The notes under the pieces: generated by a model
Told to the model about the DNA's origin: nothing
What the model saw: the letters and a program-made list of their open reading frames with translations, nothing else
Database searches by the model: none
Part shown: in pieces, positions 9,927 through 63,377 of the stretch
How the letters are laid out: every line of letters starts with the position of its first letter
Numbering within the stretch: position 1 is the stretch's first letter
Made by a program: the position numbers and the translations under genes
Source: a virus
Strand: one strand, 5' to 3'
DNA length: 64,000 nucleotides
Virus record (IMG/VR): IMGVR_UViG_3300032088_002153
Location: 1 to 64,000 of that record

Positions 9927-9955
9927 TTGACATTCTCTTTAGAATCAGTTATATT
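9927..9955 (+). promoter_or_regulatory. Early sigma70-type promoter
   Basis: TTGACA at 9927-9932, 17 bases, TATATT at 9950-9955. The segment from AACTATTGACATTCTC to AGAATCAGTTATATT is almost the same as at 10226. Confidence 0.8.
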
Positions 9956-10225: not shown

Positions 10226-10254
10226 TTGACATTCTCCTTAGAATCAGTTATATT
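10226..10254 (+). promoter_or_regulatory. Early sigma70-type promoter
   Basis: TTGACA at 10226-10231, 17 bases, TATATT at 10249-10254. It is a close copy of the site at 9927 and would drive the next two small genes and possibly the RNA region behind them. Confidence 0.8.
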
Positions 10255-10285: not shown

Positions 10286-10444
10286 ATGCGTATCGTAATT
10301 AAAGACATTATGAAAGTTTGTAAATGCTCAGACAAAGTTGCACTTAACATTGAAGAGCAAATGGAAATTGAAGGTTTTGATTTTTCTCAGGCAACTAAAA
10401 AAGAATTTCGCATTGCTGCTAAATTCGCTATGATGGAAATATAA
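10286..10444 (+). CDS. Unknown small protein, 52 aa
   Basis: ATG at 10286 with GGAAAGAGA upstream, TAA at 10442-10444. The product (MRIVIKDIMKVCKCSDKVALNIEEQMEIEG...) is helical, with a VCKCSDKVALNIEEQM stretch that could form a helix-turn-helix-like pair, but this is only a guess. It is the first gene behind the early promoter at 10226. Confidence 0.5.
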   Translation: MRIVIKDIMKVCKCSDKVALNIEEQMEIEGFDFSQATKKEFRIAAKFAMMEI

Positions 10445-10462: not shown

Positions 10463-10789
10463 ATGAAAACAGTAATTAAAGCAAGTGACGTTGGAAGCAC
10501 ACTAACACATAAGCCAAACAATCGTGCAAAGGCAGTGTTTAAAACACTAGACCAAGGTCAGTATGCTATTGAAGCAAAAAATATTTTGATGGAAAATGTT
10601 AAAACTGGCGAAGTATGGGAACTTGGCTCTTCCACACCAGTATACTCGAAAGAGTTAATTGAATATCAAATGTTAATGCCAAAGGATCGTCTATTAGAAA
10701 CATTTCCTGGGATTGTAGGAAAGTTTTTTGAAAGCCGAGGAACGTGGTCCGACAAAGACGAGTGGAACGTAAAGTACACTCGAGCATAA
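10463..10789 (+). CDS. Unknown small protein, 108 aa
   Basis: A 108-residue soluble basic protein (MKTVIKASDVGSTLTHKPNN...) with AAAGGAACTC before the start. No motif is visible. It ends just before the structured RNA region and could share its transcript. Confidence 0.55.
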   Translation: MKTVIKASDVGSTLTHKPNNRAKAVFKTLDQGQYAIEAKNILMENVKTGEVWELGSSTPVYSKELIEYQMLMPKDRLLETFPGIVGKFFESRGTWSDKDEWNVKYTRA

Positions 10790-10796
10790 TTCAGAG

Positions 10797-11060
10797 GCGG
10801 GTATTAGAGAGTAAAGACTAATATCGGCCAATGAAAAGCCTAACAGCCAATGTACAAGGTTTTGTTAGGTGGGTATAATCGCCGGTACCGAAGGAAACCC
10901 GGACGTTTGCTACTAACGAGATTGTAGATAAGGGGAGAGGCACTGCAGAAAGTCTCTCCCACGAAAACTATATTAACCTGCGTCTTGCAAATGAGGGAAC
11001 CGGACCTAAACTTTGCCAGACAATATCGTCAAAGAACCAAGGCGCAGATTAATATAGTTT
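10797..11060 (+). ncRNA. Structured non-coding RNA candidate upstream of tRNA-Pro
   Basis: About 265 bases without a convincing frame hold several good helices. They are TATTAG 10802-10807 with CTAATA 10818-10823, CCTAACA 10839-10845 with TGTTAGG 10863-10869, and GGGAGAG 10933-10939 with CTCTCCC 10954-10960. The largest is a 12-base-pair stem, 10965-10976 with 11049-11060, continued inward by CTGCGTC 10978-10984 and GGCGCAG 11041-11047. Inside it GCAAA 10987-10991 can pair with TTTGC 11012-11016. It ends two bases before tRNA-Pro. I cannot match it to RNase P RNA, 6S RNA or a group I intron; some large phage RNAs lie next to tRNAs. Confidence 0.6.
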
Positions 11061-11062
11061 AA

Positions 11063-11139
11063 CAGGGTGTAGCTCAGTATGGTAGAGTGTCGCACTTGGA
11101 ATGCGAAGGTCGTTGGTTCAAGTCCAGCTACCCTGACCA
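11063..11139 (+). tRNA. tRNA-Pro (anticodon UGG)
   Basis: The acceptor stem CAGGGTG pairs with TACCCTG (one G-U); a leading C is usual for tRNA-Pro. The anticodon stem TCGCA/TGCGA encloses CTTGGAA, giving TGG (reads CCA). The T arm is GTTGG-TTCAAGT-CCAGC. CCA is encoded at 11137-11139. Confidence 0.93.
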
Positions 11140-11205
11140 ATTGGCAGGATCAGCCTAGGAGAGGTGTAACACACAGCCTAAAGATCACATAGAAGACCCG
11201 AGTAA

Positions 11206-11238
11206 TAGGGAGGTTATTAATTTAGCCTCCCTATTTTT
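11206..11238 (+). terminator. Rho-independent terminator after tRNA-Pro
   Basis: TAGGGAGG 11206-11213 pairs perfectly with CCTCCCTA 11226-11233, followed by TTTTTG. The T run favours the plus strand. The same hairpin also lies just past the end of the minus-strand EF-hand gene, so it may serve both. Confidence 0.85.
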
Positions 11239-11241
11239 GTT

Positions 11242-11571
11242 TTATTTTTTGCCTACTGCATCAGCAGCAAAGAATGCTGAAACCAATACCGCAATTGATG
11301 CAAAGTATGTTGGTGCAATATCAGCAACTAATCCAGCCGCTGTGTCTAAGTTTAACCAAGAAGTTAAAATGATTGCTAATGGATATACTAATAATCCAAT
11401 AAGTGAAAACCAAGCCATTTTACGGATAGCGTCACGCTGAGCGTCTTTATCCTCTAATGCTTTGCGTTTGAATTCTAAATGCATTGCCATTTCTTCAGCT
11501 GAGATATGACCGTCTCCGTTCACGTCAATAGCTGCCGCTGCTTCTGCATCGATAGTTGTCTTGTCTGCCAT
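11242..11571 (-). CDS. Membrane protein with an EF-hand calcium site
   Basis: The start at 11571 (MADKTTID) is chosen because GGAG precedes it; the frame opens four codons earlier. The 109-residue product has a canonical EF-hand loop (DVNGDGHISAEE), a charged helix (EFKRKALEDKDAQRDAIRK) and two transmembrane helices (WFSLIGLLVYPLAIILTSW and YFASIAVLVSAFFAADAV). The topology fits a small inner-membrane protein, perhaps holin-like, with a calcium-sensing cytoplasmic end. Calcium-triggered action is inference. Confidence 0.7.
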   Translation of the reverse strand: MADKTTIDAEAAAAIDVNGDGHISAEEMAMHLEFKRKALEDKDAQRDAIRKMAWFSLIGLLVYPLAIILTSWLNLDTAAGLVADIAPTYFASIAVLVSAFFAADAVGKK

Positions 11572-11627
11572 GTTATTCTCCATTAAATTTATATGCGCAT
11601 TACAAAGACTTCAATACTTTTATTTAT

Positions 11628-25830: not shown

Positions 25831-25859
25831 TTGACATTTTAGCTCTACTGTATTATATA
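25831..25859 (+). promoter_or_regulatory. Sigma70-type promoter directly before tmRNA
   Basis: TTGACA at 25831-25836, 17 bases, TATATA at 25854-25859. The tmRNA acceptor half begins a few bases further on. Confidence 0.8.
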
Positions 25860-25861
25860 TA

Positions 25862-26146
25862 ACTAGTGAACGTTGAAATGACGTGAATACGGATCGGACC
25901 TCGGGGCAGTACCGAGCATCTCCACCAAATTTACTCTGTAGGGTAAAAACTGATAATTTACTTTGTAGAGTAAATTTGATGGGGATGAACAAGGATCGAC
26001 GGACGGAATAGCTTAATGGAGTTCATCGGGTGATCGCGTATAGATCAATTAAACTAAATGCAAATGAAAATTTCGCACCATCTGGATTTGCTCTAGCAGC
26101 ATAATCACAGGGGGGTTGTCCACTTACCTAGCAACAGAAAAGTGGT
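25862..26146 (+). ncRNA. ssrA: Permuted (two-piece) tmRNA, alphaproteobacterial type
   Basis: The 3' acceptor half comes first: T-arm CTCGG-GGCAGTA-CCGAG, acceptor strand CATCTCC at 25917-25923, then A and CCA at 25925-25927. The 5' half follows at 25981 with GGGGATG, which pairs with CATCTCC (one G-U), and GGATCGACGG, the tmRNA D-loop signature. A tag frame starts with GCA at 26060 and reads ANENFAPSGFALAA with TAA at 26102-26104; ALAA is a ClpXP-type degron. Behind it GTTG/CAAC and CCACTT/AAGTGG form an H-type pseudoknot. The 53 bases between halves would be cut out. The outer limits are approximate. Function: rescue of stalled ribosomes. Confidence 0.9.
25927..25977 (+). repeat. Inverted and direct repeats in the tmRNA intervening segment
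   Basis: AAATTTACTCT at 25927-25937 pairs with AGAGTAAATTT at 25967-25977. The segment also holds two near copies of a small palindrome, TTTACTYTGTAGRGTAAA. The hairpin would bring the two halves together before the segment is removed. Confidence 0.7.
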
Positions 26147-26179
26147 ACTTAATAAAACTATTACAAGGAAAAAGGTAAC

Positions 26180-26968
26180 ATGGGTAAATTCTTATTAACA
26201 ACGGCACTAACTTTGGTAGCCGGTGCAGCGATTGCACAGGAAGTAACCGAAGCACCAGTAGGATTAACTGGTAAAATTGAAACAGTAATTGCTGAAGGTG
26301 CTGGTGGAGATTGGGGTGCAACGTCATCTTTTGATCTTGGCGTATCTGCAGGATCTGGCTTAGCATCAGGTTCTATGTCTTTCGTCGTTGACTCAAATAA
26401 CGATTTGGCTTTAGACGAATATTCAATCGGTACATCAATCGGTGGAACTGAATTGTCATTTGGAGACCAAGGCAATATTTGGATTGACACAGAAAACGGT
26501 TCTTCTATTGAAGAAGCAAAGATTGCTGATGAAAGCATTCAAGCAACTATCGCAGGTGTATCAGTAGCAGCCGGCTTAAACATGGATGATTTAACTGACA
26601 TTCAAAACGTACAAGCTGGTTACGGTATTCCATTAGGAATTGCTAACATCAACGCAGTAGGTGACTATAACCTAAACAGTGAATCATGGATTGTAGCAGG
26701 TCGCGCAGACACAGACGGTATGTTGGAAAATGTACGTATCGGTGGTGCAGTATCATACGGTTCAATTTCAGAAAAACTTGGCTTTGAAGCTGACGCTACA
26801 GTAGGACCATTAACTGGTTATATTGGCGGTGACCAAGATGATCTAATGAAAGATGCAGGCGTTAATGGTGAAGTTGCTGTTGCAGGTATCGATGTAGAAA
26901 CTAAATTGAACTATAACTTTGACAGTGAAGAATTAACACCATCAGTTGGTTTAAGTTTCAACTTCTAA
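26180..26968 (+). CDS. Phage-encoded porin-like outer-membrane protein
   Basis: A 262-residue protein with signal peptide (LLTTALTLVAGAAIA, cut before QEV) and alternating beta-strand pattern throughout. It ends in the aromatic-terminal strand LTPSVGLSFNF, whose C-terminal Phe is the sorting signal of outer-membrane barrels. Low sequence complexity with many Gly, Ala and Asp fits marine alphaproteobacterial porins. AAGGAAAAAGG precedes the ATG. It follows the tmRNA and is closed by a strong terminator. Possible roles are nutrient uptake or blocking a receptor porin. Confidence 0.72.
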   Translation: MGKFLLTTALTLVAGAAIAQEVTEAPVGLTGKIETVIAEGAGGDWGATSSFDLGVSAGSGLASGSMSFVVDSNNDLALDEYSIGTSIGGTELSFGDQGNIWIDTENGSSIEEAKIADESIQATIAGVSVAAGLNMDDLTDIQNVQAGYGIPLGIANINAVGDYNLNSESWIVAGRADTDGMLENVRIGGAVSYGSISEKLGFEADATVGPLTGYIGGDQDDLMKDAGVNGEVAVAGIDVETKLNYNFDSEELTPSVGLSFNF

Positions 26969-63348: not shown

Positions 63349-63377
63349 TTGACATAGCGTATAGAATCAGTTATATT
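63349..63377 (+). promoter_or_regulatory. Early sigma70-type promoter for the SleB-type hydrolase
   Basis: TTGACA at 63349-63354, 17 bases, TATATT at 63372-63377. Shares AACTATTGACAT and AGAATCAGTTATATTAGAAT with the sites at 9927 and 10226. Confidence 0.8.

Follow-up and report, generated by a model that had tools for sequence, protein, structure and literature searches.

A structured non-coding RNA family of marine phages with self-complementary loops and a predicted capacity for self-assembly

Background

To our knowledge, only a few families of natural RNAs assemble without protein, and we know of no established role in phages for two RNAs that are of particular relevance here, ROOL and GOLLD. 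The packaging RNA (pRNA) of phage phi29 forms a ring that is held together by loop–loop pairing, which involves two different, complementary, non-palindromic loops; we are not aware of any use of pRNA by T4-type phages.

ROOL is a homo-octameric cage of D4 symmetry that is built with kissing loops, one of which is self-paired, GOLLD contains two self-interacting kissing loops, one of these with a GC/CG dinucleotide switch, and OLE is a homodimer formed via a palindromic loop that switches between GGCC, GAUC and AGCU (PMC12286853). For OLE and GOLLD, Kretsch et al. used an argument from the covariation of adjacent bases, and the respective contacts are seen by cryo-EM (PMC12286853). Structured RNAs of marine T4-like phages have been described as well, namely manA (RF01745) and wcaG (RF01761) (PMC2864571).

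Here, we analyze an RNA locus in a 64 000-nt stretch of viral DNA (positions 1 to 64 000 of the IMG/VR record IMGVR_UViG_3300032088_002153; hereinafter, the window) and its relatives (designated by L numbers). The RNA has a conserved structure, is non-coding, phage-borne and present in a single copy, and its palindromic loops are kept through sequence change. Judging from the sequences, this is probably a stand-alone, phage-encoded non-coding RNA of an undescribed family that is often co-transcribed with tRNAs and would homo-oligomerize through self-complementary kissing loops.

The locus and its transcription unit

The original prediction described, within positions 10790–11236 of the window, a helix-rich stretch of about 265 bases without a convincing gene, and this is borne out by shuffling, inverted repeats and an ORF check. 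The fold energy of the region is −151.9 kcal/mol, compared with −116.4 kcal/mol for dinucleotide shuffles (z = −7.3), none of the 100 shuffles being as good, and the part upstream of the tRNA, when folded alone, yields a z of −5.5, with none of the 200 shuffles as good. No ORF of at least 50 amino acids overlaps the RNA core, and no conserved ORF was found in the window and the relatives. At least four good helices were predicted, and such helices are found at 10790–10835, 10839–10869 (P1), 10933–10960 (P4), 10965–11060 and 11204–11235 (the terminator); the helix described as 12 perfect pairs plus 7 in fact consists of 12 pairs, one mismatch and about 10 more pairs, and is slightly better than claimed. 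Beyond what was predicted, the conserved unit also takes in the segment 11140–11203, the tRNA is an optional element, and the core includes two probable pseudoknots.

The unit lies on the plus strand. A likely promoter, TTGACA-N17-TATATT with an inner dyad (10226–10254), is of the same type as a promoter in L004 and is separated from the RNA by two small ORFs (10286–10444 and 10463–10789). The 5′ hairpin (10790–10835), an inverted repeat with 78% complementarity, starts just after the stop codon of the second of these ORFs; it is kept in L004, and is absent or different in the other relatives. The core and a long hairpin, module B, follow (see below), and the stretch then runs, as predicted, into a tRNA-Pro, which we located at 11063–11139 (anticodon UGG) and which is an optional part of the unit. 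The 3′ domain (GGCAGGAUCAGCCUAGGAGAG...; 11140–11203) is co-conserved with the RNA; its identity in both L004 and L006 is 98%, and the sequence that flanks it there diverges more than the domain itself. The strong terminator anticipated at the end of the stretch is an intrinsic terminator of 13 pairs (11204–11235), after which the next gene (11242–11583) is on the opposite strand.

The promoter type TTGACATTCT-N5-GAATnnGTTATATT with the inner dyad is repeated in the window, at 9927–9955, 10226–10254 and 63349–63377, and it looks as if one repressor or activator controlled several units. The window also encodes a tmRNA of the alphaproteobacterial, permuted type (25835–26195; tag ANENFAPSGFALAA), and similar tmRNAs are present in the related contigs L011, L020 and L124.

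Relatives and distribution

Homologs were collected by a protein-synteny search and, subsequently, by DNA-pattern scans of IMG/VR and GTDB genomes; the covariance model R1 scores the collected loci at 56–150 bits (E ≤1e-12). The core of ∼140 nt, which consists of P1, P2, the H-type pseudoknot P3 and P4, was found in about 90 virus contigs from marine phages. Two loci were reached via protein synteny: L004, which shows 91% identity upstream of the tRNA and has 125 extra nucleotides just before it, and L006, with about 80% identity, which lacks the tRNA and in which the RNA directly abuts the 3′ part. The RNA is present in one copy per viral record in all 19 records tested. The T4-type capsid gene gp23 was detected in 7 of these 19, including all five that are longer than 130 kb, and because the shorter records are fragments, its absence from them means little; the replication genes of the phage in the window include gp32-like and UvsX-like ones.

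The presence of the RNA is sporadic, none being found in the related phages L007–L032. When the tRNA-free region and three relatives were compared by blastn with cultured phages, only short chance matches were obtained, and the matches to the full region correspond to the tRNA. In L005 (5250–5380), the same genomic place is occupied by a different, GC-rich and probably structured stretch with a terminator, which replaces the RNA and the tRNA. Four copies of the RNA are located on separate contigs of the metagenome-assembled genome (MAG) G022 (Rhodobacteraceae bacterium Water_Bin34); the two that were checked carry T4-type phage genes, and the copies were rejected as bacterial host copies, being phage sequence mis-binned into the MAG. 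The 384 other genomes of the class to which G022 belongs yielded no match under strict filters. In G003:C1:110962-112079, the gp23 gene is in several pieces with stops in between, perhaps because of an intron, an insertion or assembly errors.

With Rfam 15 at the gathering score, only tRNA and tmRNA were detected in the window and 12 relatives, and permissive thresholds, applied to the region and seven relatives, added only tRNA-like or chance matches; altogether, neither the window nor any of 19 related loci gave a family match for the RNA. A group I intron, RNase P and a second tmRNA piece were considered by eye, without support from Rfam. The family is new to Rfam, and we did not find it in the literature searched. 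The original prediction of an undescribed structured RNA is thus supported by the lack of an Rfam family, the non-coding character of the region and the strong covariation of the homologs, the last two being the points on which it could have failed.

Conserved structure

Covariation among homologs was one of the checks that the prediction proposed, and it is strong both in the core and in module B. Across 64 distinct core sequences, 94.4% of the pair cells are formed, compared with 84.2% after shuffling, and double-sided changes occur at 22 of the 30 pairs; the covariation score is 0.361 against a mean of 0.161 for shuffled and at most 0.112 for slid alignments. Although the model to which the core alignment was fitted contains P1, P2, P3b and P4 and so favors these helices, the conclusion is safe in view of the slid controls and of how large the effect is.

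In the P1 hairpin (10839–10869; CCUAACAG...UUGUUAGG), double-sided changes in the relatives affect 5 of the 7 pairs. The P2 hairpin (CCGG...CCGG; 10882–10902) is 100% paired, with double-sided changes at 2 of 4 pairs, and its loop takes part in a proposed pseudoknot, PK1 (10872–10889), in which GGUA (10872–10875) pairs with UACC (10886–10889). PK1 is paired in 100% of the cells and yet is nearly invariant, and the motif GGTACC was included in several search patterns, so that covariation does not bear on this putative pairing. P3 is an H-type pseudoknot (10904–10927) that combines CGUU (10904–10907) with AACG (10915–10918) and CUAC (10910–10913) with GUAG (10924–10927). Its second stem is 100% paired, and 4 of 4 pairs are double-changed, whereas the first stem retains its two outer pairs, which are double-changed on one occasion, and its two inner pairs hold in one subclass only. 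The P4 hairpin (10933–10960), with 9 bp and a 10-nt loop, ACUGCAGAAA, is 99.6% paired, and all 7 of the counted pairs are double-changed.

Module B (10965–11060) is a long hairpin with 23-nt arms (10965–10987 and 11038–11060) that are 91% complementary, and with a conserved inner part, GAGGGAACCGGACC; in nine distinct versions, 149 of the 153 cells are paired, and 11 of the 17 pairs show double-sided changes. By eye, palindromes are not a consistent feature of its loops, and we do not claim kissing for this module. The surroundings of the core vary: L038 has another enclosing helix, and L035 and L050 have tandem B modules. In L035, L044, L050 and L054, where the B modules are tandem or enlarged, there is a conserved inner part, AGAGCGGCAACGUCAAUAAGGCCGUGCG, that resembles another structured domain. 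Another conserved element, module D (AGGC...GGGGAAAGCCU...GUACCC), is probably also a pseudoknot; it lies ahead of the core, 91–100 nt upstream of GGTACC, in 18 distinct sequences (L035, L038, L070, L078, L101, L128, L133, L153, L195 and others).

Palindromic loops

The ∼10-nt loop of P4 contains a self-complementary hexamer, proposed kissing loop 2 (CUGCAG in the window, 10943–10948), and the hexamer is palindromic in all 70 members, namely CUGCAG in 61, CCUAGG in five and CUCGAG in four. CUGCAG was required by two of the scan patterns, and its high share is partly due to this selection; all nine members with other hexamers came from scans that were free of any constraint on the loop sequence, and each of these hexamers is palindromic. 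About six changes of the P4 hexamer are reconstructed on a tree for which both loops were masked and which, with few columns, has many weak forks; at least three of the changes are forced by supported branches, and the hexamer is palindromic after every change. As a background, of 243 further strong hairpins in the loci retrieved, 21 contain a palindromic hexamer. When L162 is compared with L041, the 37 nt around the P4 loop are identical except for the central GC, which is changed to CG in L162. Because adjacent bases cannot pair with each other, this GC/CG covariation points to a second molecule as the partner, and the sequences strongly suggest homotypic kissing at P4.

The apical region of P1 carries proposed kissing loop 1, the self-complementary UGUACA (10851–10856), which is replaced by other palindromes in the relatives; there are about a dozen types, with ∼21 changes on the loop-masked tree. 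These palindromes are partly hairpin stem, and in some classes comprise only 4 nt (GGCC, GCGC). The shuffle P-values for single P1 loops are mostly not significant, under a null model that ignores hairpin stems, and for these reasons we grade P1 below P4: homotypic kissing at P1, and hence the formation of dimers, rings or filaments, is suggested. The P1 hexamer differs from the P4 hexamer in 69 of the 70 members, the exception being L153, with CUCGAG in both loops, and CUGCAG is found in P1 only where P4 has CCUAGG (5 of 5). The choice of the hexamers thus looks as if cross-pairing between P1 and P4 were avoided.

Genomic context and possible functions

A tRNA is located within 700 nt of the RNA in 41 of the 85 loci, in some cases at less than 20 nt, and the neighboring tRNAs are on the same strand as the RNA in 65 cases and on the opposite strand in none. 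In L004, a promoter of the type repeated in this phage (4766–4794) is directly upstream of the RNA, giving the order promoter–RNA–tRNA–terminator; there is no ORF between the promoter and the terminator, so at this locus we are dealing with a pure RNA gene. The proximity of tRNAs in 41 of the loci, on the same strand, speaks for a scaffold that would aid the processing or protection of adjoining phage tRNAs. This explanation is nevertheless rather improbable, considering that about half of the 85 loci have no nearby tRNA in the available sequence (some of the contigs end close by), that L006 has lost the tRNA but kept the RNA, and that a scaffold role alone does not explain the palindromic loops. 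At a distance of 11–40 nt past P4, many relatives have the start of a same-strand ORF that is equipped with a ribosome-binding site, one small gene family provides the first ORF in 20 loci, and U runs follow some of the P4 hairpins, features that would fit a leader acting in cis on downstream genes or tRNAs, be it as a riboswitch, an attenuator or an antiterminator, similar to the cyanophage manA and wcaG or to the put/EAR antiterminators. However, the RNA ends the unit and is followed by a convergent gene in the window and in L004, L006, L139, L154 and L195, so that nothing is left to control and a role as a 5′ leader is ruled out at these six loci; a downstream gene that could be controlled is present in many other members, but the first downstream genes are many and unrelated, there is one copy of the RNA per record, and the conserved loop palindromes get no role. 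Overall, a leader function appears unlikely. Least plausible, we believe, is an RNA with a protein partner, be it pRNA-like packaging or a decoy or inhibitor in host defense, in which the loops would bind a dimeric protein. The multimerization of phi29 pRNA by loop–loop pairing offers a phage precedent, and single copy along with sporadic presence fit an accessory function, but the two pRNA loops are complements of one another and not palindromes, the carriers are T4-type phages, and a single protein site would hardly account for three different palindromes at the same position.

Under the preferred reading of a homo-oligomerizing RNA, the RNA would be transcribed, often along with tRNAs, and would fold into a compact core (P1, the pseudoknotted P2/P3 and P4) with optional modules around it. 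The P4 loop, and probably the P1 loop too, would then kiss its counterpart in a second copy, producing homo-oligomers; with two two-fold contacts each, the monomers could assemble into a dimer (C2), a filament or a closed structure, either ring or cage, with dihedral symmetry. The assembly might, for instance, serve to enclose or present RNA, including tRNAs, in line with proposals for GOLLD and ROOL. We infer the intermolecular pairing and the multi-copy assembly, as well as any role. More tentatively, the RNA might represent a third family of self-assembling phage RNAs, much smaller than the other two and unrelated to them, in which orthogonal P1–P1 and P4–P4 kissing would generate rings, cages or filaments, with modules and tRNAs as cargo. 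The ∼140-nt building block could assemble while T4-type phages infect marine bacteria, a scenario that we put forward with the same reserve.

Comparison with known RNAs

A further possibility raised in the original prediction was that the large, ornate phage RNAs have a shortened relative here. As far as homology is concerned, this is not supported. The GOLLD model (RF02032), in a search without a positive control, gave no hit above the cut-off in 22 records and none at the RNA, the best scores being at chance level and elsewhere in these records, and permissive cmscan found no GOLLD match in the region or seven relatives. The ROOL model (RF03087), likewise without a positive control, had no match at E-values up to 1 in 21 records, nor did cmscan of the window and relatives. 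What stands is the analogy, which is based on the tRNA neighborhood, the optional tRNA inside the unit and the self-complementary, putative kissing loops.

Among the other RNAs compared, manA and wcaG share the marine T4-like phage setting and a structured RNA, but are candidate riboswitches in the 5′ UTRs of metabolic genes, and cmscan gave no match to them here; phi29 pRNA belongs to another phage group and was not matched by the RNA in Rfam. OLE has a palindromic loop that changes its sequence, as in P4, but is bacterial and much larger, and again there is no Rfam match. GOLLD is a phage or prophage RNA encoded near tRNA islands, sometimes with tRNAs within the unit, and has self-complementary loops, to which corresponds, at the sequence level, the P4 hexamer, palindromic in 70 of 70 members through about six changes; it differs in its size, >800 nt compared with the ∼140 nt of the core described here, and in its structure. 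ROOL, too, is a phage RNA near tRNA islands with kissing loops, which are predicted here, although its model is ∼570 nt long and no helices are recognized in common. As with both of these RNAs, same-strand phage tRNAs are found nearby (41 of 85 loci, 65 versus 0). Hence, by analogy, the RNA may work like ROOL and GOLLD, with no detectable homology to either. If so, it would be a third family with the hallmarks of these RNAs and a core about one-fourth to one-sixth of their size, RNA self-assembly would have arisen repeatedly in the tRNA regions of phages, and the RNA would offer a small, tractable test object, the assembly of which could be probed through its loop palindromes.
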